Virus record (IMG/VR): IMGVR_UViG_3300031885_000099
Coordinates: 1-25,895 of that record
DNA from: a virus
Length of the DNA: 25,895 nt
Strand: one strand, 5' to 3'
Part shown: positions 1 to 23,833 of the stretch, in pieces
Position numbering within the stretch: the first letter of the stretch is position 1
Layout of the letters: each line of letters opens with the position of its first letter
Notes under the pieces: model-generated
What the model was told of the DNA's origin: nothing
Seen by the model: only the letters and a program-made list of their open reading frames with translations
Database searches by the model: none
Program-made: the position numbers and the translations under genes

Positions 1-2
1 CA

Positions 3-86
3 CGGTTAGCGTTCAAGCATGGTCTAGCCAGCAAACAAGACATTGACTTAATATGCGCGGCAGTAATAGCTAACGCTATTACTTAG
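3..86 (+). CDS. C-terminal end of an upstream gene (partial, unidentified)
   Basis: One frame is open from the window edge to a TAG at 84-86 and encodes 27 residues ending in DLICAAVIANAIT. The other two plus frames close sooner (TAG at 7-9, TGA at 44-46). The codons resemble those of the downstream phage genes and the peptide looks like a C-terminal helix, so this is probably the tail of a gene that begins outside the window. Its last codons fall inside the 62-83 hairpin. The product cannot be named from so little sequence, and a chance open frame is possible. Confidence 0.4.
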   Translation, partial: RLAFKHGLASKQDIDLICAAVIANAIT

Positions 87-107
87 TAGCAAGCTGCTAC
101 TGCAGAG
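59..107 (+). repeat. Left arm of an imperfect inverted repeat made of two hairpins
   Basis: Two adjacent perfect hairpins. The first is AGTAATAGC (62-70), loop TAAC, GCTATTACT (75-83). The second is AGTAGCA (85-91), loop AGC, TGCTACT (95-101). The reverse complement of 721-770 has the same two hairpins in the same order, preceded by the same GGCAGTAA. The arm overlaps the stop codon of the upstream partial gene. Confidence 0.7.
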
Positions 108-140
108 CCAACCTAAGCAGGCCAGCCACGAGCAGGCAAA

Positions 141-164
141 GCAAAGCGGTACACTTACCGCTGC
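141..164 (-). repeat. Hairpin element, copy 1 (opposite orientation)
   Basis: GCAAAGC, then a hairpin GGTA-CACT-TACC, then GCTGCC. The full stem is AGCGGTA (145-151) with TACCGCT (156-162). It matches the reverse complement of the copies at 333-360 and 410-435 in both stem arms and in the GCAAAGC flank, but has a different four-base loop (CACT instead of AGGG). Confidence 0.7.
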
Positions 165-185
165 CTGCCACCACCAAGCAGGCAG

Positions 186-201
186 TGCAAAGCGCTGGTA
201 G
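186..201 (-). repeat. Hairpin element, copy 2, with the hairpin apex missing
   Basis: TGCAAAGC (186-193) runs directly into GCTGGTAG (194-201). The reverse complement of 333-360 is TGCAAAGC, then twelve bases GGTAAGGGTACC, then GCTGGTAG. This copy is therefore identical to that element apart from exact absence of the self-complementary 12-base centre. It is either a deletion product or an 'empty' site without the apex. Confidence 0.7.
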
Positions 202-214
202 TGCAAGTGGGAGT

Positions 215-238
215 GCATAGGCATAGGCATAGGCATAG
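215..238 (+). repeat. Hexamer array, four GCATAG units
   Basis: Four perfect tandem copies of GCATAG (215-220, 221-226, 227-232, 233-238). AGTGCAT occurs at its left edge (212-218) and again just after the second array (275-281). Confidence 0.9.
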
Positions 239-246
239 TACAGAGT

Positions 247-276
247 ACATAGGTATAGGTATAGGTATAGTTATAG
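247..276 (+). repeat. Hexamer array, GTATAG units with variant ends
   Basis: Five hexamers: ACATAG, three perfect GTATAG (253-270), then TTATAG. It lies 8 bp after the GCATAG array and differs from it mainly at one base, so both are variants of G-Y-ATAG. Confidence 0.85.
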
Positions 277-332
277 TGCATGCCAACCCGCCTACCCACC
301 ACTGCTTACTGCTTTGCAAGGGCACTGCTTTG

Positions 333-360
333 CTACCAGCGGTACCCTTACCGCTTTGCA
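333..360 (+). repeat. Hairpin element, copy 3
   Basis: CTACCAGC, then GGTACCCTTACC, then GCTTTGCA. The hairpin stem is AGCGGTA (338-344) with TACCGCT (349-355) around a CCCT loop. Bases 335-360 are a perfect 26-bp direct repeat of 410-435. Confidence 0.85.
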
Positions 361-409
361 TAGCTTGCCATGTGCAGGCTAGCTAGTGGCAGGCCAGCAT
401 GTAAATGCA

Positions 410-435
410 ACCAGCGGTACCCTTACCGCTTTGCA
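410..435 (+). repeat. Hairpin element, copy 4
   Basis: Perfect 26-bp duplicate of 335-360. Stem AGCGGTA (413-419) with TACCGCT (424-430), loop CCCT. Here the surrounding sequence adds an outer 5-bp stem, TGCAA (406-410) with TTGCA (431-435), separated from the inner stem by a CC bulge. Confidence 0.85.
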
Positions 436-462
436 AATGCAAATGATTCGCAGCATAATGCA

Positions 463-501
463 GGGAGGCCAGCAGGGGGGAGCAGGGGGTGCTTGCTTGG
501 G
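463..501 (+). other. G-tract cluster (possible G-quadruplex)
   Basis: Four runs of three or more G on the plus strand: 463-465, 475-480, 485-489 and 499-501, with spacers of 9, 4 and 9 bases. The pattern permits a long-loop quadruplex but does not prove one. Confidence 0.3.
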
Positions 502-549
502 TGCACTGCACCTCGAAAATCTCGCCAGCAAATTTTTCCCAAGGAAAAA
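500..549 (+). repeat. Two adjacent small dyads
   Basis: GGTGCA-C-TGCACC (500-512) is a perfect 13-bp dyad. TTTTTCC-CAA-GGAAAAA (533-549) is a perfect 7-bp stem with a 3-base loop. Neither has the GC-stem plus U-run form of a normal terminator. Confidence 0.6.
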
Positions 550-679
550 CAAGGCCTTGCCTGCTGCCCAAGGTAAGCATGCTGGGTGTGCCTTGGCTAG
601 TTCGCCTGTAGCCCAAGGTATGCTGCCTAGGTGTGGCAGGCCAGTTGCTGCTCAAATGTAGCTTTACAGCAGCTTTATT

Positions 680-710
680 TTGTGCTAGTATGCTTGGCAT
701 GGCTTATAAA
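680..710 (+). promoter_or_regulatory. Weak sigma70-like promoter candidate upstream of the late operon
   Basis: TATAAA at 705-710 could serve as a -10 box, with TTGTGC at 680-685 as a poor -35 box. The 19-bp spacer is too long for a strong promoter. It is listed because something must drive the gene series starting at 835; a phage polymerase promoter would not be recognised this way. Confidence 0.2.
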
Positions 711-720
711 AATAAGAATG

Positions 721-770
721 CCTGTAGTAGCTCAGCTACTGCCTTGTAACAGCGCCCTGCTGTTACTGCC
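721..770 (-). repeat. Right arm of the imperfect inverted repeat made of two hairpins
   Basis: AGTAGCT-C-AGCTACT (726-740) followed by GTAACAGC (746-753), loop GCCCT, GCTGTTAC (759-766). Read on the minus strand, the order and sequences parallel 59-107. The GTAATAGC/GCTATTAC stem on the left is GTAACAGC/GCTGTTAC here, so one base pair has changed on both sides and the stem is kept. Confidence 0.7.
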
Positions 771-834
771 TACAGCCTTACTGTCCCTCCCAGTAGGGCT
801 GCCTTTTATTCTGCTACCACTAACAGGTATGGTA

Positions 835-3018
835 ATGGCCAAACTTACTCTTACAGACGAATCTAGTGGCTTTCAAACCACAACACAAAGAAATGCCAAC
901 TATGCTGCTATTGAAACTGCTTTAGAAAACACCTTGTCAAGGAACGGTACTGGCCCTAATGCTATGGGTGCTAACCTTGACATGAACAGCCACCGCATTA
1001 TAAACCTGCCTGCACCTATTGCTAGTAGTGATGCTGCTAGGTGGGTTGATGTGGCAAGTGCTGTAGGCTTAAGTACAGCTGTACCTACCCAGACTGGTAA
1101 TGGTGGCAGGGTATTGAGTACTGACGGTACTTCACTTACTTGGAAGAATGCGCCTGTTGCTGTTGATACAGTAGCAGACATGAAGGCCTTGACTGGCCTT
1201 GCGAATGGGGCTTACGTGTGCTGTGGTGGCTACTATACTAAAGGGGATGAAGGCGGTGGAGATTTCATCTATAACTCTAGCTCTAGTGCTACCCAAGATA
1301 ACGGCAAATATATCACCCCTAATACTCTCCCGGGTAGGTTCATTAGACTTATGGAAGGCGACATAACACCGCACATCTGGGGCGCGAAGGGGGACTCTAC
1401 TACTAATGACCAGACAGCGTTTGAAGCTTGTATAACGTGGATTAAGAGTGCGCAAGTTGCCACTCCAGCTATGACAAACGTATACTCAACGCCTGTTATG
1501 CGTCTGATTGAGGGCAAAAGGTACCTAGTGACTGGGAATCTTGATGTCGGTACAGACTTTCACATATATGCTAATCGTGCTGTGATAATGTCGAGCTTTT
1601 ATCCCTTTGTACAGACAACACCTCTGTTCATTAACGTGAACACGGGTTGTGTTTTTGACGGTGTAGGCACCTGTGGATTCACCGACATCTTTCGTATCGC
1701 AACTGGGAATCTCGACGGGTCCGTCATCGTGATCCAAAATTGCGATATACAAGAGTGGTCAGGCGTAGCTATTAAGACAGACACTAACAGCGCAAGTACT
1801 TTCCTTATAGCACAGAATAATAGATTCATAGGTAGACACACAGTGGCTACTAATTGTGTATCCGATACAAAAGTAGACTTTTTCCATTTTATACGCAACT
1901 GGGTGGAAGCGTCGTGTGAGACGTTTTTCATCAATCGAGGCTCAATACTGATAGAAGGTCTGTGCGGAGTGCCCTTCTACAGCACTGCAAATGACACCTG
2001 GGTTGATCATTTAGGCTTTGATGTAACCTTAACAAACTGCCGATTTGGTGGTGAACTAGGAGCCAGGACGATAGTGCGGAATGGAACTGGCCCAGGGGCT
2101 ACTAACGTCAACCGGGTATCAATAACGAACTCGCAGATGTACTGTGGCGATTTTCCCGTGTGCTATTTCACTGACATCCCTGACGTGTTTGTGTTTACGG
2201 GCAACAATGGACTGACTGGCTCCTATCCTTTTGAATTCTCAACAAGTATACCCACATCCACGCTATACACGTTAGGTTCTCGTCAAAGTTGGGTTGTTGA
2301 AAATAATCAGTTCGCTAGCGTCCTCTTTGGACAAAGAGCAAGCACAGAGCATGGGACTGCTGCATGTAAGATTGAGCTCATGCAAAACAGGGATAAGCAA
2401 AGTGGATGTGAGACTTACAAAGAATCTCAGAAGCTGCTCGATATTTTATACACAGAATCAGGATATGGGGCCGCTGGGAGTTTAGGCGCAGGCATGAGCG
2501 CAGGCACATCTACAGACATATACGCTGCTACAGTGCAAACAATCCTCGGTGTGGATGGCACAGGGAATCAGTTCAACACAAGCTTTACAACACTGCTCAA
2601 TGGACTGGCGGCTGGCTTGTATACAGCAGTAGTGAATGTTGAAATGAAAACAGCCAAAACAGTAGCTTTCAGTTTATCTGGGGGCGGTAATAAAGTTACG
2701 CAAAATCTCGGGATGGGCGCACAAACAATATCAGTGCCTTTTTACTTTGATGGTACAAACACTCAAGCTGTAGGCTATCAAGTAGAAAACGTGTGCACCG
2801 GGGCTACTTTTGCGCATGGCGGCGTCCGGTTATTTTCTGGTAGAGTTCTAGTTAAAACTTGGAACACCGAGGCTCTAGGTAATGCAGCCCCGACAACCAG
2901 GTATTGGCGGCTGGGTGATCGTGTCAGACGACTGACACCTACTGTAGGGCAACCAAAAGCTTGGGTGTGTACTGTTGCTGGTACACCTGGCACATGGGTA
3001 TCTGAGGGGAATTTATAG
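835..3018 (+). CDS. Tail spike / tail fibre with pectate-lyase-like beta-helix
   Basis: 727 aa. The N-terminus MAKLTLTDESSGFQ...ALENTLSRNG...LDMNSHRIINLP (1-60) is the particle-attachment type common in podovirus fibres. The YYTKGDEGGGDF stretch (133-144), WGAKGD (182-187) and NDQTAFEA (191-198) are typical of the opening of pectate-lyase-superfamily tail spikes, and the long following region has beta-helix character. The C-terminus, ending VAGTPGTWVSEGNL, is a terminal domain frequent in such spikes. The frame stays open back to 631, but the conserved N-terminus starts at 835, with AGG at 825-827 as ribosome site. It probably binds, and may cleave, a surface polysaccharide. Catalytic residues cannot be assigned. 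Codon style in the middle (about 1260-2950) differs from the ends, consistent with domain exchange. Confidence 0.85.
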   Translation: MAKLTLTDESSGFQTTTQRNANYAAIETALENTLSRNGTGPNAMGANLDMNSHRIINLPAPIASSDAARWVDVASAVGLSTAVPTQTGNGGRVLSTDGTSLTWKNAPVAVDTVADMKALTGLANGAYVCCGGYYTKGDEGGGDFIYNSSSSATQDNGKYITPNTLPGRFIRLMEGDITPHIWGAKGDSTTNDQTAFEACITWIKSAQVATPAMTNVYSTPVMRLIEGKRYLVTGNLDVGTDFHIYANRAVIMSSFYPFVQTTPLFINVNTGCVFDGVGTCGFTDIFRIATGNLDGSVIVIQNCDIQEWSGVAIKTDTNSASTFLIAQNNRFIGRHTVATNCVSDTKVDFFHFIRNWVEASCETFFINRGSILIEGLCGVPFYSTANDTWVDHLGFDVTLTNCRFGGELGARTIVRNGTGPGATNVNRVSITNSQMYCGDFPVCYFTDIPDVFVFTGNNGLTGSYPFEFSTSIPTSTLYTLGSRQSWVVENNQFASVLFGQRASTEHGTAACKIELMQNRDKQSGCETYKESQKLLDILYTESGYGAAGSLGAGMSAGTSTDIYAATVQTILGVDGTGNQFNTSFTTLLNGLAAGLYTAVVNVEMKTAKTVAFSLSGGGNKVTQNLGMGAQTISVPFYFDGTNTQAVGYQVENVCTGATFAHGGVRLFSGRVLVKTWNTEALGNAAPTTRYWRLGDRVRRLTPTVGQPKAWVCTVAGTPGTWVSEGNL

Positions 3019-14793: not shown

Positions 14794-14798
14794 AATTG

Positions 14799-17700
14799 AT
14801 GTCATACTTTGGTGATGAAGTAACGCAAGCTGATGTAGACTATATTTTCAATGATAAGCCGTACAGGCCTGTTGTAGACCTTCGTGAGCAGTTCTATGCT
14901 GACCTAGCCACCAGACAACCACAGGCCTACAGACGCATGCAAGATGAAGCCGCTGTAGGTGTAGATACGACCTACCAGACACTAACTGCTGATGCCACAT
15001 CTGAACGTAAAGTAGCTTTAAACAAAGGTTTGCAAAGTGCCTTATTGGCTGCGCCTGTAGAAGAGGCCCAAGGTATTGTAGACAACTTTTCTGACAAAGC
15101 TAACCAGCCCTTAACTATGCGTGAAATGTTCTTCGAGCAGCAAGGTATTGAGTTAAAGGATGACTTAGAAGTGGCCAGGAATCTGCTGTCTGAGACGTCT
15201 GCTAAAATACCTACCAACCTAATTAACCGCGCTAAAGCTAGAGCTACAACCAGCCAAATTGGTGCAGGTGCAGACCCTGGCAGTCTTATAGCTGAAGCAG
15301 GCAGGGAACAAGCCTACTTTGAAGGTTCAGACAAGCAAAGCCAGCAAGCTTTTATACAAGAAGAACAGGACATAGCGTCAGCTCAAGGCGGCCTAATAAG
15401 GTCAATGCCAGCATTCACTATGGCGTGGATGTCACAGGCTGCTAAAGAAGTTACTGGTGAGCAATCTTACCTTTACGGGAATGCTGTAGAGGCTCTGGCT
15501 GCGCACATATACTACAGCCCTGACCGTGCTAAAGCTACAGAGGCAGTTATTACCAGTGTACGTAAGCACAGTGGCCTGCTAGGTGAAAATGAATTTGATG
15601 TAGCCTCTACGCTGGATTTAGTTAATGACTATGTAGGCAAGATTGATGAAGGCACCACTGAAGAGTGGCGTGCTAAACTGCAAAACTTCATGCTTAACAC
15701 CTTTGCTATTATAGACTTTATACCTGACTGGGTGCCTAACTTTAACAAGACCATTAAAACAGCTAAAGCTAATAGTGCAGCTGCCCCTTTAGGGCGTGGT
15801 ATTGACACCCCTTTGGGTGACATAGCTGCAAATGATAAAGCTGCTGGTGACATACTAGCCAGCGCTGTATTGCAAGAACCTAGTGGCCAAGCAGGGAATG
15901 TATTAGGTGTAACTAAAGAGCAAGCTGCTATAAACAGTGTGCCAGGCTTTGAGTATGACGGCCTACGCGTTGCTGGGCAAGACGGCACTAAAGAGCTTAA
16001 CGACAATGTAGCTGTGGCACTAGCTACTGCTGAGAACATTACACCTGCAAGTTTGTACCCGTTTGTAGATGCATCTAAGCAGGAAAAGCAGCTAGAAGGT
16101 GTGTTAACACAGTTACCTAAAGACGGCCAATTACCCCCTTACCAATCTGACCTGACTTTAAGTATTTTTAAGAAGTCTGATGACGGCTTTTTAAGGTACG
16201 GCTCTGTGTATGGTAAAGCAGACGGTTCAAGTTTTACGTCTTATGACGAGGCTTTATCAGCTTCACAAGGTATTAGGCAACAGTTTGGTGCTGGCCCTTT
16301 TGAGACTGAAGGTGTGACTATACTTGAGCGTGTTGGTGGTGGCAACACCTGGTCTACTCTTCAAGGTGCACCAACTGAAGGTGCAGAGTTTAAAGTGCAG
16401 TTAGATGTTAAGCAGCGCATGCGTTGGGATACTGACCATGTAATACCTGAAGAGGCTGTAACACCAGCCCTCTTTGGCACCAGGTACTTTCAGAATATAC
16501 ACGCAACGTTGTCTAGTGACTATACTACCGCGTTAGTAGTATCTAATGAAAGTGCTTCTAGGTTACAGTCAGATATACTACGTATTAATGAGCCTATTTT
16601 TAAGCTGAACGAGTTTAAGAAGCAAGGCGTACTTAAGGCTATTGTAGACGGTGGGGAACAAGAGCGGGTATTTAACGACACTGAACTTGTGGCTATGTAT
16701 AAACTAGACCAAGACCAAATACATGCCTACCATTCTGAGAGGGCTATGTGGGATGTTATACACCAAATAAAGAACAAAGAAGAGTACACCACCAAACTGT
16801 CTGAAGGCTACGTACGCCTCAAGTCTGATGCAGACGACGGTACGCAGGCTGTTGATACCATGGGTAAGGCTGTTGACTTAAGTAACTTCACTGGTGTGGA
16901 GAAGGTCGCTGTGATAGATAAAGGCCAGGTTACTGTTGTAACAAGAGCAGAAGCTGACCAGTTCAAACAGCAAGGCTACCAAGCTTATGCCTTAGCTGAC
17001 GTACATAATGCGGCTGGGGATAAACGCTACAAGTTTATGATGGCTAAGCCTACAGAGCATGTGCAACCACTGCCTGAGCAGATGCTCCCGTACCGTAAAG
17101 GGTACTATTATAAAATAAACAAAGGGAAGTACTTCATTGAAAAAGAGTTCCCAGGTGAACTGAACGGTGTTGCTCACAGCTTTAAGCGTGCTGTTGCTAT
17201 TGCTGACAGCCCTGCTGCTGCTGAAATGGCAGTTAAGCAAGGTATAGGCACAGGTTATAAGGTAGACGAGAACCTTGTGAACAACCATGACTTCGCCAAC
17301 TGGATTGAGATTAACACCCCTACTACAGGTTACTGGTACTCTGCAAGGCAGCCACAAATGCCTACATACAGTGTAGACATGGCTAACCAATTACAACGTG
17401 TGACCAGTAAGTCTGAAGACCCTTTGTCTGCGGCAGAAGCTGCTGCTGCTAAAGTCAGTAACTTTGTTGCATGGCGTGACACAATCAAAACATACGAGCA
17501 ATTACACAAGAACACCTACCCTGAGCTTTGGACAAGTGATGGTGCAAGGTCTTTGTACTTAGGTACGCAGGCAGCTGACAATACTGCACGGGTAAGAGCT
17601 GCTAACGCTATGTTTGAGCACATGACCAGCCTGACAGGCTATGCTAGCCAAGTTGATGCTACTTGGAATAACTGGATGGTGTCTATGGATAAGCTATTCA

Positions 17701-19544
17701 GTAACCACAGGTTAGGACAACACACATCTAAACTATTCCTTGATGCAGGTGTTAAAGCTAACCCTGCAAGGCTGTTAACTAGCGGCACTTACTACACACA
17801 AGTGGTTTCTGCCCCTTTCAGGCAGTTCTTACTTAATATTATGACGCCCACATTGTACGCAGGTGTTGCACCTGTAACATGGGCTAAGTCTATTAAAGAG
17901 GCTTACTTTGTTTACGCCAAGCTAACAGGCGGGCATTTACCTTTGCGCAGCGTGCAAATTGATAATGCATTACGTACAACTGGTGGTGTTGTTGACGACA
18001 TTACAGAAGTAGCTAGGCAGTTCGTAAAGACGGGTAAGATTGAAACAGTTGACAGCCATGTACAACTACATAACGAAATGTTAAAGGCCTTTAAAGGTGG
18101 TTCTGATACTAAAGCAGAAGCGCTGTTCAGGGAGTCTGTTAAACCTCTTAAAAAGGTCGTTGGTTTTGTTAGAGAGCAAGGTGTTGTGAAAGGCGAATTA
18201 TTTAACAAGGTATTTAGTTTTGTTTTCTCTAAGAATATGCTGCAAGCTGACAAGAAAGTCCCTCTTAAGGGCAACTGGTATGACAAGGCCAACCTGGAGC
18301 GTATAAGTAACAAAGCTAACCAGTTAGGTTTAGATATGACTAAAGTTGGGGCTTATGCTTACCAAGGCGGACTTGCTAGACCTCTTACCCAGTTCTTAGG
18401 TGTTATGCACCAAGCTATGGGTGTGTTGGTGCCTAAAATACCTGGTGTAGTGCGTGGCAACAGAGCTTACGATGGTAAGCGTGCCGCTGTGCTACTTGGC
18501 CTTTTCTCTTTATGGGGTGCACAAGGCTTGCCATTCAGCCCTGACGAGCTTATTAATGGCGTACTAAGGCAGCAGCTAGAAGATAATGGCATTGACCTGT
18601 CTGTATTAGACAATGGCACATCATATGCTTTGATGGAAATACTACTAAGAGGTGCGCTGGGGGCTTCATTTGCTGAAGTTATGCGCCTCGCCACTGGCCA
18701 AGAAGAGTCTGTTACTTCTGAATTCAGTGGTGTCATTAGCCCAGTAGCTTCAGGTGCTAACCCGTTTGTAGAGCGCCTACTTACATCTGAAGGTACTTTG
18801 CTTGAGCTGCTAGCAGGGCCTAGCTTGAACTTTGTAAATAATGTCAGCGCTGCTGCTACAAGTACAAGGTTACTTATGTATGGCTATAAGCCTGACGAAC
18901 TTAGCTTAGAAAAGCTTAAGGACATTGCTGTAACATGGGCTGGCATCTTACCTAGCTTCTCTAATTATATGCAGGCTTCAGCATCTATTAAGTACAAGCA
19001 GGTTGTGGATGACTACTATAGCTTCAGTAAGAAGGATGTAAGATTGCAGTCCAATATGGGCGAGCAGCTTATTAAAGCTTTTGTCGGGATTAAACCAGGT
19101 AATGAGCAGACTTTTTACGACATGCTAGGTGATAACAAAAAGATGGAAGAGGCAGCAAAGCAAGATGTTGCTATTATTAAGGGTATGTGGTTGCGTATAG
19201 CTACAGATAACACATTGACAGATGAGCAAAAACAAGCTAAAATTGCAGGCATTAGCAGTGTACTAAGTAATAACCAATTATATAACAATAAGATACTAGA
19301 CACACTGGCAGTTGAGCTTGTTAACGACAGTACATTAGAGCCTATTGTTACTGCTTTTATTACCAAAAACCTACTAGACACACCTGAAAAGTCCATAACT
19401 GCTACCGAAAGGGAGTTGGACAGGTTCTTCTTAGGACACCCTTTAGTCCCTAAAGAAACTCAAATAAAAATACGTGAGATGGTTAAGACATACGCTGAAG
19501 ACGCTAGAGCTGCAATAGAGTTAAATAATGCCACAACAAATTGA
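14799..19544 (+). CDS. Very large internal virion / DNA ejection protein
   Basis: 1581 aa from ATG at 14799 (a TTG at 14796 directly before it is less likely). The N-terminal third is acidic, helical and Gln/Ala-rich. More hydrophobic stretches occur around residues 1007-1040 (FLLNIMTPTLYAGVAPVTW) and 1230-1245 (VLLGLFSLWGAQGLPF). Length and position after the gp14-like gene fit the largest T7 core protein (gp16, about 1320 aa), but I see no N-terminal transglycosylase motif; a separate lysozyme gene downstream may supply that activity. No GATC tetramer occurs anywhere in this gene. Overlaps the next gene by 17 bp. Confidence 0.75.
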   Translation: MSYFGDEVTQADVDYIFNDKPYRPVVDLREQFYADLATRQPQAYRRMQDEAAVGVDTTYQTLTADATSERKVALNKGLQSALLAAPVEEAQGIVDNFSDKANQPLTMREMFFEQQGIELKDDLEVARNLLSETSAKIPTNLINRAKARATTSQIGAGADPGSLIAEAGREQAYFEGSDKQSQQAFIQEEQDIASAQGGLIRSMPAFTMAWMSQAAKEVTGEQSYLYGNAVEALAAHIYYSPDRAKATEAVITSVRKHSGLLGENEFDVASTLDLVNDYVGKIDEGTTEEWRAKLQNFMLNTFAIIDFIPDWVPNFNKTIKTAKANSAAAPLGRGIDTPLGDIAANDKAAGDILASAVLQEPSGQAGNVLGVTKEQAAINSVPGFEYDGLRVAGQDGTKELNDNVAVALATAENITPASLYPFVDASKQEKQLEGVLTQLPKDGQLPPYQSDLTLSIFKKSDDGFLRYGSVYGKADGSSFTSYDEALSASQGIRQQFGAGPFETEGVTILERVGGGNTWSTLQGAPTEGAEFKVQLDVKQRMRWDTDHVIPEEAVTPALFGTRYFQNIHATLSSDYTTALVVSNESASRLQSDILRINEPIFKLNEFKKQGVLKAIVDGGEQERVFNDTELVAMYKLDQDQIHAYHSERAMWDVIHQIKNKEEYTTKLSEGYVRLKSDADDGTQAVDTMGKAVDLSNFTGVEKVAVIDKGQVTVVTRAEADQFKQQGYQAYALADVHNAAGDKRYKFMMAKPTEHVQPLPEQMLPYRKGYYYKINKGKYFIEKEFPGELNGVAHSFKRAVAIADSPAAAEMAVKQGIGTGYKVDENLVNNHDFANWIEINTPTTGYWYSARQPQMPTYSVDMANQLQRVTSKSEDPLSAAEAAAAKVSNFVAWRDTIKTYEQLHKNTYPELWTSDGARSLYLGTQAADNTARVRAANAMFEHMTSLTGYASQVDATWNNWMVSMDKLFSNHRLGQHTSKLFLDAGVKANPARLLTSGTYYTQVVSAPFRQFLLNIMTPTLYAGVAPVTWAKSIKEAYFVYAKLTGGHLPLRSVQIDNALRTTGGVVDDITEVARQFVKTGKIETVDSHVQLHNEMLKAFKGGSDTKAEALFRESVKPLKKVVGFVREQGVVKGELFNKVFSFVFSKNMLQADKKVPLKGNWYDKANLERISNKANQLGLDMTKVGAYAYQGGLARPLTQFLGVMHQAMGVLVPKIPGVVRGNRAYDGKRAAVLLGLFSLWGAQGLPFSPDELINGVLRQQLEDNGIDLSVLDNGTSYALMEILLRGALGASFAEVMRLATGQEESVTSEFSGVISPVASGANPFVERLLTSEGTLLELLAGPSLNFVNNVSAAATSTRLLMYGYKPDELSLEKLKDIAVTWAGILPSFSNYMQASASIKYKQVVDDYYSFSKKDVRLQSNMGEQLIKAFVGIKPGNEQTFYDMLGDNKKMEEAAKQDVAIIKGMWLRIATDNTLTDEQKQAKIAGISSVLSNNQLYNNKILDTLAVELVNDSTLEPIVTAFITKNLLDTPEKSITATERELDRFFLGHPLVPKETQIKIREMVKTYAEDARAAIELNNATTN

Positions 19545-21315: not shown

Positions 21316-22034
21316 TGCCTGTTATAGAATATGAAGGTCAGCAGTACGAATTCCCTGAAGATGCTAGTGACGAAGAGATCTTTGATTTCTTAGGTAATGA
21401 GCCTGCCAGTGAAGCGCCTACTGACGACGTGCCAGAGCCTTTGCTGCCAGAGGGTACATCAGACTATATAAAGCAGAATGAAGGTTACAGAGCAAAACCT
21501 TATAAGGACAGTTTAGGCATACGTACTATAGGTTACGGTTTTAACTTACAAGACCAGTCTAACCAGGCATTAGCTCAACGTCTAGGTGTTAAGTTTGATA
21601 AGCCTTTAAGTGCACAGGATGCTGATAAGCTTTTTAAGCACAGTGTCATTGCAGCTGAAGATTCATTACGAAACTTAGACCCTGAGTATGACAATAGACC
21701 TGACGGGGTTAAGAAAGCTTTACTTGATATGTCGTACAATCTTGGGGCTAACCGATTAGGTGAGTTTGAAGATATGTTTACAGCTATTAAGTCTGGGGAC
21801 TATAAGCAAGCAGGCTTTGCAGTTACGAAGTCGCTATACGCGTCACAGGTGCCTGTACGGGCACGTAATAATGCCAAGCTGCTAATGCAGGCGTCAATGC
21901 AGGCAACCGAGCAGCGTTATGCAGTACAGCAGCCTGTACAGTCTTACAGCGAAGGTGACTATGAAGACGAAGCTGGTAACCCGTTCTATGTAGATTCTAA
22001 TGGCCAGGTTAACCCAGCCAGGTATGCACCATGA
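21315..22034 (+). CDS. Virion-associated T4-type lysozyme (GH24) with N-terminal adaptor
   Basis: 239 aa. Residues 1-27 ([20 protein letters not shown]...) form a short 'G-x-x-Y-x-FP-x-DA-x-x-EEI' segment seen at the start of various phage virion proteins. The enzyme begins about residue 48. E56, D65 and T71 are spaced exactly as E11, D20 and T26 of T4 lysozyme (E-x8-D-x5-T), within [33 protein letters not shown] and the [12 protein letters not shown] segment fit the rest of the fold. It should cleave the MurNAc-GlcNAc bond. Position among structural genes suggests a particle-borne enzyme for entry rather than the lysis enzyme. Stop and start overlap both neighbours. Confidence 0.85.
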
Positions 22035-22507
22035 CAAGTCCAGTAGGTAAACTAACTAAGATAGTACACAAGCCTGGCACTAAAGGTGACCAAGGCCCAA
22101 GAGGCTTTGACGGCATGCCAGGCCTAACAGGCCAGCAAGGCCCTGTAGGTAAACAAGGGATACCTGGCCTACAAGGGCCACAAGGCGAGCCAGGTCTTAC
22201 ACCTGAGCATGAAGTACAGCAAGGCATGGTTAGGTTTAAAAAGCCTGACGGGTCTTGGGGTCAGTGGGTACAGCAAAGGCCTGGTACAGGCAGTGGTGGT
22301 CACCCGCCTTACCTAGTTAAGTACCACGCTATAACTACTAATAACTACCGCATAACACGTGACTCACTTGTGTGGGGCAATAACATATTTGGGGTGCGCT
22401 ATGCAGGGGCAATAACAATATACATACCACCAGCAGCAGACGTACAACAACTTATGTTCTTTAAAGATGAATTAGGCACAGCAACAATAACATTAACAGC
22501 AAGCTAG
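22031..22507 (+). CDS. Collagen-like tail fibre protein
   Basis: 158 aa. Starts at an ATGA overlap with the lysozyme gene. Residues 16-54 consist of thirteen uninterrupted Gly-X-Y triplets ([15 protein letters not shown] ...), predicting a trimeric collagen helix. A middle region with [10 protein letters not shown] leads to a compact beta-rich C-terminal domain. Phage collagen-like segments serve as rigid shafts in fibres, so this is probably a short fibre or spike subunit. No host-range domain is recognised. Confidence 0.8.
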
Positions 22508-22978: not shown

Positions 22979-23833
22979 ATGACAGCGACCAGAGTTAAAG
23001 AGACAGCAACTACCACTGGCACAGGTAACTTCACTTTAGCTGGTGCGGTCACAGGCTTTGTTACATTTAACACAGCCTATGGCACTAGCAGACGCTTCCT
23101 CTATTTCATTGAAGGTGTGTCTGGTGAGTGGGAGTCAGGCTTCGGGTACTTGTCAGCATCGACAACACTTGTAAGAGAGCAGATAAGGCAAAATAGTTCA
23201 GGCACTACGACTGCACTCAACTTCAGTGCTGGTACTAAGAATGTGTATATGGCCGTTACAGACCGTTCAATTATCCAGCCACCTCAAGGCTGGCAAAATG
23301 TATCAACAAAAGGTGTGCCAAGTGCTCACATTTCCGCATCAACACCAAGCGCCGTGCAATCTGCTGGGTCTGATAAGATGCGAATGACACCATTTGAACT
23401 AGCGTTCCCGATGGTCGCTACTGGAATTCGTGTAGAAGTTACAACAGCGGCAGCTTCTAGCAAAGGGCGTATGGCGCTGTATGAAGTAAAAAGCAACGGC
23501 CTGCCAGGTAATATAATAGTGGAAACTGGCAACATAGACACTACAACTACCGGCATAAAGACAGGGACTTTCACTGCAAAGTTCATACATGCAGGCACGT
23601 ACTGGTCTGCATGTGCACAAGATCTGTCAGCTGTTGCTTTTAGACGCTATTCACAAGGTGGATTCAGGGGGAGTGTGGCTGGAGGTAATACTTCCACAGC
23701 TGCTCACGACTCCGGGATAAACCACTCTCTTACTGGGGGGTGGACGACACTGCCTACAGCAGATCCTACTGGGTCAGTCTTAGATGACTCTTCAGGGTGC
23801 CTTTTCTTAAACTTAGTGGGAGACATGATCTAA
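22979..23833 (+). CDS. Tail fibre-like protein, mosaic
   Basis: 284 aa. ATG at 22979, preceded by AGGGG in the end of the previous gene. Residues 1-100 (RVKETATTTGTGNFTLAGAV...FLYFIEG...WESGFGYL...TLVREQI) are a conserved opening found in many phage tail proteins. The remainder (GIRVEVTTAA, GRMALYEVKSNGLPG, GTYWSACAQDLS) looks like a beta-sandwich binding domain. Base style changes near 23280, where the conserved part ends, suggesting that the C-terminal domain was exchanged. Its stop overlaps the next start by one base. Confidence 0.68.
   Translation: MTATRVKETATTTGTGNFTLAGAVTGFVTFNTAYGTSRRFLYFIEGVSGEWESGFGYLSASTTLVREQIRQNSSGTTTALNFSAGTKNVYMAVTDRSIIQPPQGWQNVSTKGVPSAHISASTPSAVQSAGSDKMRMTPFELAFPMVATGIRVEVTTAAASSKGRMALYEVKSNGLPGNIIVETGNIDTTTTGIKTGTFTAKFIHAGTYWSACAQDLSAVAFRRYSQGGFRGSVAGGNTSTAAHDSGINHSLTGGWTTLPTADPTGSVLDDSSGCLFLNLVGDMI

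Follow-up and report, generated by a model that had tools for sequence, protein, structure and literature searches.

A hairpin unit of 22 bp was found at five positions, on both strands and non-collinear with the surrounding sequence, inside one hypervariable non-coding island shared by five closely related phage records. The best explanation, to which we give a probability of roughly 40%, is that the unit is a locally mobile hairpin, copied and collapsed at the terminal repeat during replication or concatemer processing, and the comparison suggests that hairpins this small can be gained by copying and lost again in this non-coding stretch. The evidence comes from a metagenomic phage sequence of 25,895 nucleotides (IMGVR_UViG_3300031885_000099), the whole of which was analysed and is here called the window, and from its relatives.

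The phage and its variable island

Matches to PHROG families named a terminase, connector, major head protein, tail proteins, tail fibre and endolysin among the products of the window, and among the best 20 matches listed its terminase is about 44-46% identical to terminases of Lentibacter, Roseobacter, Celeribacter, Methylophilales and Vibrio phages. The SIO1, ICBM and MEP401 records used for comparison are classified as Zobellviridae. The gene arms are divergent, with early genes reading leftward, late genes reading rightward and the island in between (Table 1); the leftward early genes of one relative, L006, include a DNA polymerase-like gene, named by eye. Two further reading frames of the window lie among the virion genes, one of 1582 aa (14796-19544) with no PHROG match at 0.001 and one with collagen-like Gly-X-X repeats (22031-22507).

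When viral_contigs was searched with the terminase, 10 loci were returned, of which four (L004, L006, L007 and L008) have the island, L005 has the leader alone, and five gave no match to window positions 1-900. Together with the window, the four loci make up an island data set of five records, all metagenomic. The frame of the small ORF on the left border is common to all five; it encodes 58 aa in L004, and the versions in L006, L007 and L008 are 66-73% identical to that one. Outside the island, long aligned blocks of the four relatives are 87-99.9% identical to the window, which identifies the island as the variable non-coding stretch, with the tail fibre gene (unalignable at approximately 1340-2936 in L006, L007 and L008) as a second, coding one. 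Over 9,045 aligned positions starting at window position 163, the identity between the window and its closest relative, L004, is 99.9%; upstream of this point the two diverge, the break falling at the edge of hairpin A. The sole gap in those 9,045 positions is an extra 6 bases of L004 within the tandem hexamers GCATAG and GTATAG at window 215-276.

Table 1. Coordinates of the island and neighbouring features in the window
Feature	Position	Strand	Remarks
Small conserved ORF, 3' end; left border of the variable island	3-86	+	Stop codon 84-86
Hypervariable non-coding island, G+C-rich and palindrome-rich	87-460		Many indels between relatives
Hairpin copy A	143-164	+	Stem-loop 145-162, loop CACT
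Putative collapsed (empty) site	186-201	+	189-198 is AAAGC+GCTGG, the unit ends without the 12-base centre
Hairpin copy B	336-357	-	Exact unit AAAGCGGTAAGGGTACCGCTGG; stem-loop 338-355
Hairpin copy C	411-432	-	Exact unit AAAGCGGTAAGGGTACCGCTGG; stem-loop 413-430; 75 bp from B
G-box, GGGGGG-AGCA-GGGGGTG	475-491	+	Right end of the island; like the box in ICBM1 just inside the DTR end
Conserved leader of the late operon	492-828	+	Stem-loops 533-549, 726-740 and 746-766; terminator-like hairpin 773-801
Tail fibre gene, opens the rightward late operon	829-3018	+	

Hairpin number, place and strand vary between relatives

The unit consists of AA, a 7-bp stem (AGCGGTA/TACCGCT) enclosing a 4-base loop, and GG. 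The original prediction, which was made from the window alone, described one filled hairpin; the window in fact holds three of this form, and an exact-form search of all 25,895 bp found no fourth perfect AGCGGTA-N4-TACCGCT hairpin. There are two copies in L004, one each in L007 and L008, and none in L006 within two mismatches. Six of the seven copies are the exact 22-mer AAAGCGGTAAGGGTACCGCTGG, and the 7-bp stem arms are intact in all seven; the deviating copy, A of the window, has a different loop and a different final base. It is set in the order GCAGGC, seven bases, hairpin, GCCTGC, and the corresponding site in L004 and L006 is the bare palindrome GCAGGCCTGC. Copies B and C are common to the window and L004. 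A search of eight relative records, allowing up to two mismatches, found no further copy beyond the island, so that in the records compared the unit is confined to about 370 bp. An Rfam scan of window 1-1000 gave no match at E<=1. A terminator scan scored two of the three window hairpins as terminator-like on the minus strand (three sites against 1.1 expected), a reading that we do not favour because the T's after the hairpins are interrupted by other bases.

All exact matches of at least 11 bp among the four distinct islands were listed, a comparison that is independent of gap settings. Between loci, only the hairpin match is longer than 18 bp, all others being 18 bp or shorter. In L008 it precedes the anchors TATAGAGTGCAGAG and CCTTAAGCGTGC and in L007 it comes after both, the 26-bp match between these records (L007 1102, L008 1678) being non-collinear with the two anchors. 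The window matches the L007 and L008 hairpins twice, on the opposite strand and over 23-25 bp. The exact length common to a pair of copies varies from 23 to 30 bases, and the flanks of the unit differ from copy to copy. A lack of filled/empty variation among relatives had been named as an outcome that would refute the prediction; hairpin number, place and strand all vary, and the original interpretation is supported in part.

When the hairpin sites were re-aligned under four gap settings, gaps lay opposite hairpins at several sites, but their clean form depended on the setting (two or three of the four). Opposite the L008 hairpin, L007 has a clean 22-base gap between GGCCA and TATAGAG under two settings; opposite the L007 hairpin, L008 has a 32-base gap between AAGCGTGC and TTTAGCC under three; and opposite copy C of the window, L006 has a 22-base gap under three. 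No setting gave a clean gap at copy B, where L006 TAGCAGCGGCCCTGCTT was aligned to the hairpin in all four (as TAGCAGCGG, a 2-base gap, CCCT, a 4-base gap and GCTT); judged from this alignment, L006 may carry an eroded copy at that site, or a chance pairing, rather than an empty site. At the L008/L007 site no target duplication accompanies the clean gap, and no constant duplication was seen.

Ordinary turnover by indels and recombination, in which the island is shuffled between co-infecting phages via short homologies and the hairpin is one module among many, is a possible account that we hold less probable than local mobility. The islands do carry numerous indels unrelated to the hairpin (155 gap bases in 18 runs between L007 and L008, and 211 in 27 runs between the window and L006), the near-identity of the window and L004 breaks off at the edge of hairpin A, and strand annealing at the terminal repeat is described in the cobavirus study (PMC6775973). 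Several shorter matches (11-17 bp) are likewise non-collinear or inverted, which indicates that the island is shuffled in general. Even so, the hairpin still stands out as the only match above 18 bp, non-collinear and on opposite strands, whereas plain shuffling predicts no such standout.

A putative hairpin site without its centre

The original prediction had compared the plus strand at 186-201 (TGCAAAGCGCTGGTAG) with the minus strand at 333-360 (TGCAAAGCGGTAAGGGTACCGCTGGTAG). We confirmed these coordinates and found the 12-base palindrome to be the sole difference; the boundaries, said to be exact to a single base, are looser than that, because CG is present at both junctions and the 12-base gap has three adjacent equivalent placements. 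A search of the window for the gapped pattern, which had been suggested as a check, gave two matches, whereas 100 shuffles averaged 0.01. The worry that the flanking 8-mers might recur by chance where there is no hairpin did not materialize, as the window contains the core AAAGCGCTGG a single time; among the five island records it is present in the window and L004 only, and 14 other records or pieces compared gave no match. Because L004 is nearly identical to the window from position 163, the site that it shares represents one event, not two.

For a local null, the hairpins were held fixed and the remainder was generated by Markov models of order 1-4 (20,000 simulations each) trained on the islands minus the hairpins and minus site 186-201. 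An empty match reaching 16 bases or more, for a core of 12 bases, arose in 0.02%, 0.005%, 0.035% and 0.055% of simulations for orders 1 to 4, respectively, the true chance being several times larger because the pair was picked post hoc and other core sizes would have been acceptable.

On our own estimate, the balance tips modestly towards a collapsed copy at 186-201 rather than a pre-insertion target, since AAAGC and GCTGG, both ends of the unit, are retained. Its left half was aligned to the L008 hairpin under all four gap settings, and the exact 12-base gap appeared under one, the setting that favours long gaps. The outer flanks (TGC before, TAG after) are closer to those of copy B than to those of the L008 copy, which argues against simple orthology with the latter.

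Hairpins possibly nested in outer stems

Each of the five distinct copies is flanked by short inverted repeats, with a different sequence each time (GCAGGC/GCCTGC, GCTA/TAGC, TGCAA/TTGCA, TAAGCGTG/CACGCTTA and GCC/GGC). These outer stems average 5.2 pairs, compared with 3.2 at random island points (P 0.0017) and 3.3 for unpaired flanks (P 0.0049), both comparisons being post hoc with n=5; when flanks were swapped among copies, the mean fell to 3.4 pairs. The L008 outer stem is a weak case, and as a whole the figures give weak evidence of an outer stem around the 7-bp-stem hairpin. Single-stranded DNA folding z-scores are modest: -1.0 around site 186-201, and between -1.4 and -2.2 for the five stretches that surround hairpins.

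The island probably lies at the genome terminus

The junction of the window resembles that of cobaviruses, whose direct terminal repeats (DTRs) go with T7-like concatemers (PMC6775973), in its divergent early and late arms and in the like G-rich box beside the repeat. At a divergent junction of this kind, ICBM1 has an annotated DTR of 172 bp and ICBM2 one of 159 bp. The G-box pattern GGGGGNNNNGGGGGTG has one match in each of the five island records and none in 100 shuffles of the window; four other records searched had no match, and all of these stop short of the junction. In ICBM1 the end of a like box is 18 bases inside the repeat end, and in ICBM3 it is 17 bases from the record end; four SIO1-type records have one such box each, with similar flanks. 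The pattern used has no match in the ICBM2 or MEP401 pieces, nor in MW202697, and by eye the ICBM2 repeat contains a looser version. Because the island ends at the box that marks the DTR end in ICBM1, the hairpins probably lie within or beside the terminal repeat. A DTR of ICBM1 length would span approximately window 338-509, which would put copy C inside it, copy B at its start, and copy A and site 186-201 outside.

Unlike the island phages, the SIO1-type records compared show no moving hairpin (four of six distinct records: the original and three of the five FJ), and their junctions are nearly identical. Between SIO1 and ICBM1, the early side is less conserved (85%, 17 gap runs) than the late side (93%, 3 gap runs). 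The word 'hairpin' does not occur in the main text of PMC6775973.

In L006, the two record ends share an exact 141-bp overlap, inside a gene at approximately window 22984-23124. Since 141 is a common k-mer size, this is probably an overlap produced by the assembler, closing the circle, and not a real repeat; with such ends the record looks complete. This bears on the idea that the hairpin is a functional site, an operator or a packaging or processing signal that is bound by a phage protein and maintained by selection even as the copies shift in position and number. Such a role would suit the stem arms, perfect in all seven copies while the loop of copy A differs, and the location at the divergent early/late junction adjoining the G-box, but we regard it as unlikely given that L006, apparently complete and 91-94% identical in the late region, lacks any copy within two mismatches.

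Searches beyond the island phages

When 84,980 species genomes were scanned with AAAGCGGTANNNNTACCGCTG for a host repeat, 64 loci were returned with a single match each, none with an AGGG/CCCT loop; 15 of them are in one context beginning ggttcttag, and no shared context was seen in the rest. In viral_contigs, the 18-mer gave three loci, all near relatives, while AGCGGTANNNNTACCGCTGG gave 61 and CAAAGCGGTANNNNTACCGC 37, the family members being L004, L014 and L015 in both scans. The remaining AGCGGTANNNNTACCGCTGG loci were set aside as having other loops and other contexts, some in tandem coding-type repeats. Likewise rejected was L202, an CAAAGCGGTANNNNTACCGC match whose loop is CCCT but whose stem has 6 bp and whose flanks are different; by our estimate, about 0.3 CCCT-type loops would be expected by chance among the other 34 CAAAGCGGTANNNNTACCGC loci. 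Queries with two leader words, the tail fibre N-terminus and the small ORF retrieved no new island-bearing record, and 21 tail fibre relatives (L154-L174) gave just one weak 22-base match, at the gene start.

These results weigh on the proposal that the unit is a REP-like miniature element moved in trans by a host transposase. REPs with RAYT transposases are described (PMC3733652) as extragenic palindromes of 20-40 bp with stems mostly of 6-9 bp, and the phage unit resembles them in palindrome size, stem length and single-hairpin form. It has neither the GTAG nor the CGTC end tag, ending instead in AA and GG; GTAG follows copy B only, a chance of its flank, and is not found at the other copies. 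A search for the Y1 transposase (PF01797) found none in seven of seven phage records, though the host may still encode one; no RAYT was found, and no constant target duplication was seen. Many dispersed copies would be typical of REPs, whereas here there are 0-3 per record in one island, with no extra ones in the window (exact) or in the eight relatives (up to two mismatches). Considering also the single, differently looped matches in the species genomes, we judge this proposal very unlikely. Least credible of all is an assembly artefact from palindromic metagenome reads, for although all five island records are metagenomic contigs, the exact 22-mer is present in four of them (window, L004, L007 and L008) in at least three contexts, L004, L007 and L008 come from different metagenomes according to their contig names, and the window and L004 concur on copies B and C.

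How a short hairpin might move

We return to local mobility of the hairpin, for which a more specific version can be put forward tentatively: the unit would be a very small mobile palindrome, about 22 bp long, that resides in the terminal repeat of a lytic, T7-like phage, spreading, flipping and collapsing through concatemer-end processing without a transposase. The island would be the direct terminal repeat, or adjoining sequence, of a cobavirus-like podophage (Zobellviridae) that presumably replicates through concatemers joined at this repeat. Single strands exposed at the concatemer junction could fold back at GCAAAGC-type microhomologies and at the palindrome itself, and template switching or fold-back synthesis would then copy the hairpin to a nearby place or to the other strand, the new copy often landing inside another palindrome. 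Slippage across a hairpin, or hairpin cutting, would delete its centre or the whole of it. The unit would probably be a non-coding by-product of end processing, with hairpins possibly retained as a help to it. The confinement to one island, the varying match lengths, both orientations, the nested stems and the centre-deleted copy fit template switching or fold-back together with slippage at exposed strands.

Of this scenario, the records demonstrate variation, non-collinearity, inversion and confinement, while the terminus, the copying and the direction of change are deduced from them. As to that direction, an ancestor with many copies followed by repeated loss would also fit. Counting against the copying of hairpins are the many other indels, the dependence of the gaps on alignment settings, the size of the data set (five records) and the near-identical SIO1-type junctions.

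Comparison with known hairpin elements

A hairpin-ended concatemer intermediate forms at the junction in T7, and Chung, Nardone and Hinkle reportedly described this hairpin end in 1990. The phage unit is similar in placing a hairpin at a concatemer junction, here a predicted location, and differs in that the T7 hairpin arises as an intermediate during processing in one phage, whereas the unit here changes position between relatives.

Mobile hairpins are known in mitochondria and REPs in bacteria, and a search of open-licence papers found no report of a moving hairpin in phages. For the hairpin-forming elements (RHE/DHE) of fungal and sponge mitochondrial DNA, mobility has been proposed, with no target duplication in Allomyces (PMC2800124). 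Like those elements, as presented there, the phage hairpins are short intergenic palindromes with conserved stems and loop changes, and their frequency differs in close relatives; the palindrome is at different places in L007, L008 and the window, as judged from exact anchors. They differ in belonging to a phage, not an organelle genome, in the 22-bp size of the unit, in their restriction to one island, and in being single hairpins, though often inside another stem, instead of two adjacent ones. The suggestion that the unit spreads like the organelle elements was therefore too broad, as in the records compared it stays in one island of approximately 370 bp. Yeast mitochondrial GC clusters have AG or ACT direct repeats on their flanks and occupy many genome positions (PMC4478555). 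The GC42 clusters of that study share with the phage unit a palindromic form, varying copy number, footprints at some absence sites and changes concentrated in the loop, whereas the phage unit has no constant short flanking direct repeat.

In mitochondria and bacteria alike, the spread of very short palindromes that have no enzyme of their own still awaits an explanation. If local mobility is correct, the unit would be a phage counterpart of the mitochondrial hairpin elements and would allow the process to be tested in a phage system that is fast and simple, tied to the processing of replication ends. It would also serve as a warning that the terminal repeats of such phages can be hypervariable.

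Additional observations

Within the conserved leader, window 720-801 contains two hairpins flanked by CTGTAG and CTACAG, with a terminator-like hairpin and then the tail fibre gene downstream; this arrangement is possibly an attenuator. On the minus strand of L006 (2734-3144), a 136-aa fragment of an IS240/IS6-type transposase (PF13610, E 3e-24) adjoins the DNA polymerase-like gene and may be either a genuine insertion or a mis-join. An ArdA-like antirestriction protein (PF07275, E 1e-13) is encoded on the minus strand of L008 (656-1204), with its C-terminal part in tandem (LDYRAFGRDLVLEGAVVKLNGYL twice). Finally, the phage contig L172 has, at 1900-3010, four perfect hairpins of differing sequence upstream of a similar tail fibre start, which makes this region a candidate instance of the same hairpin phenomenon.
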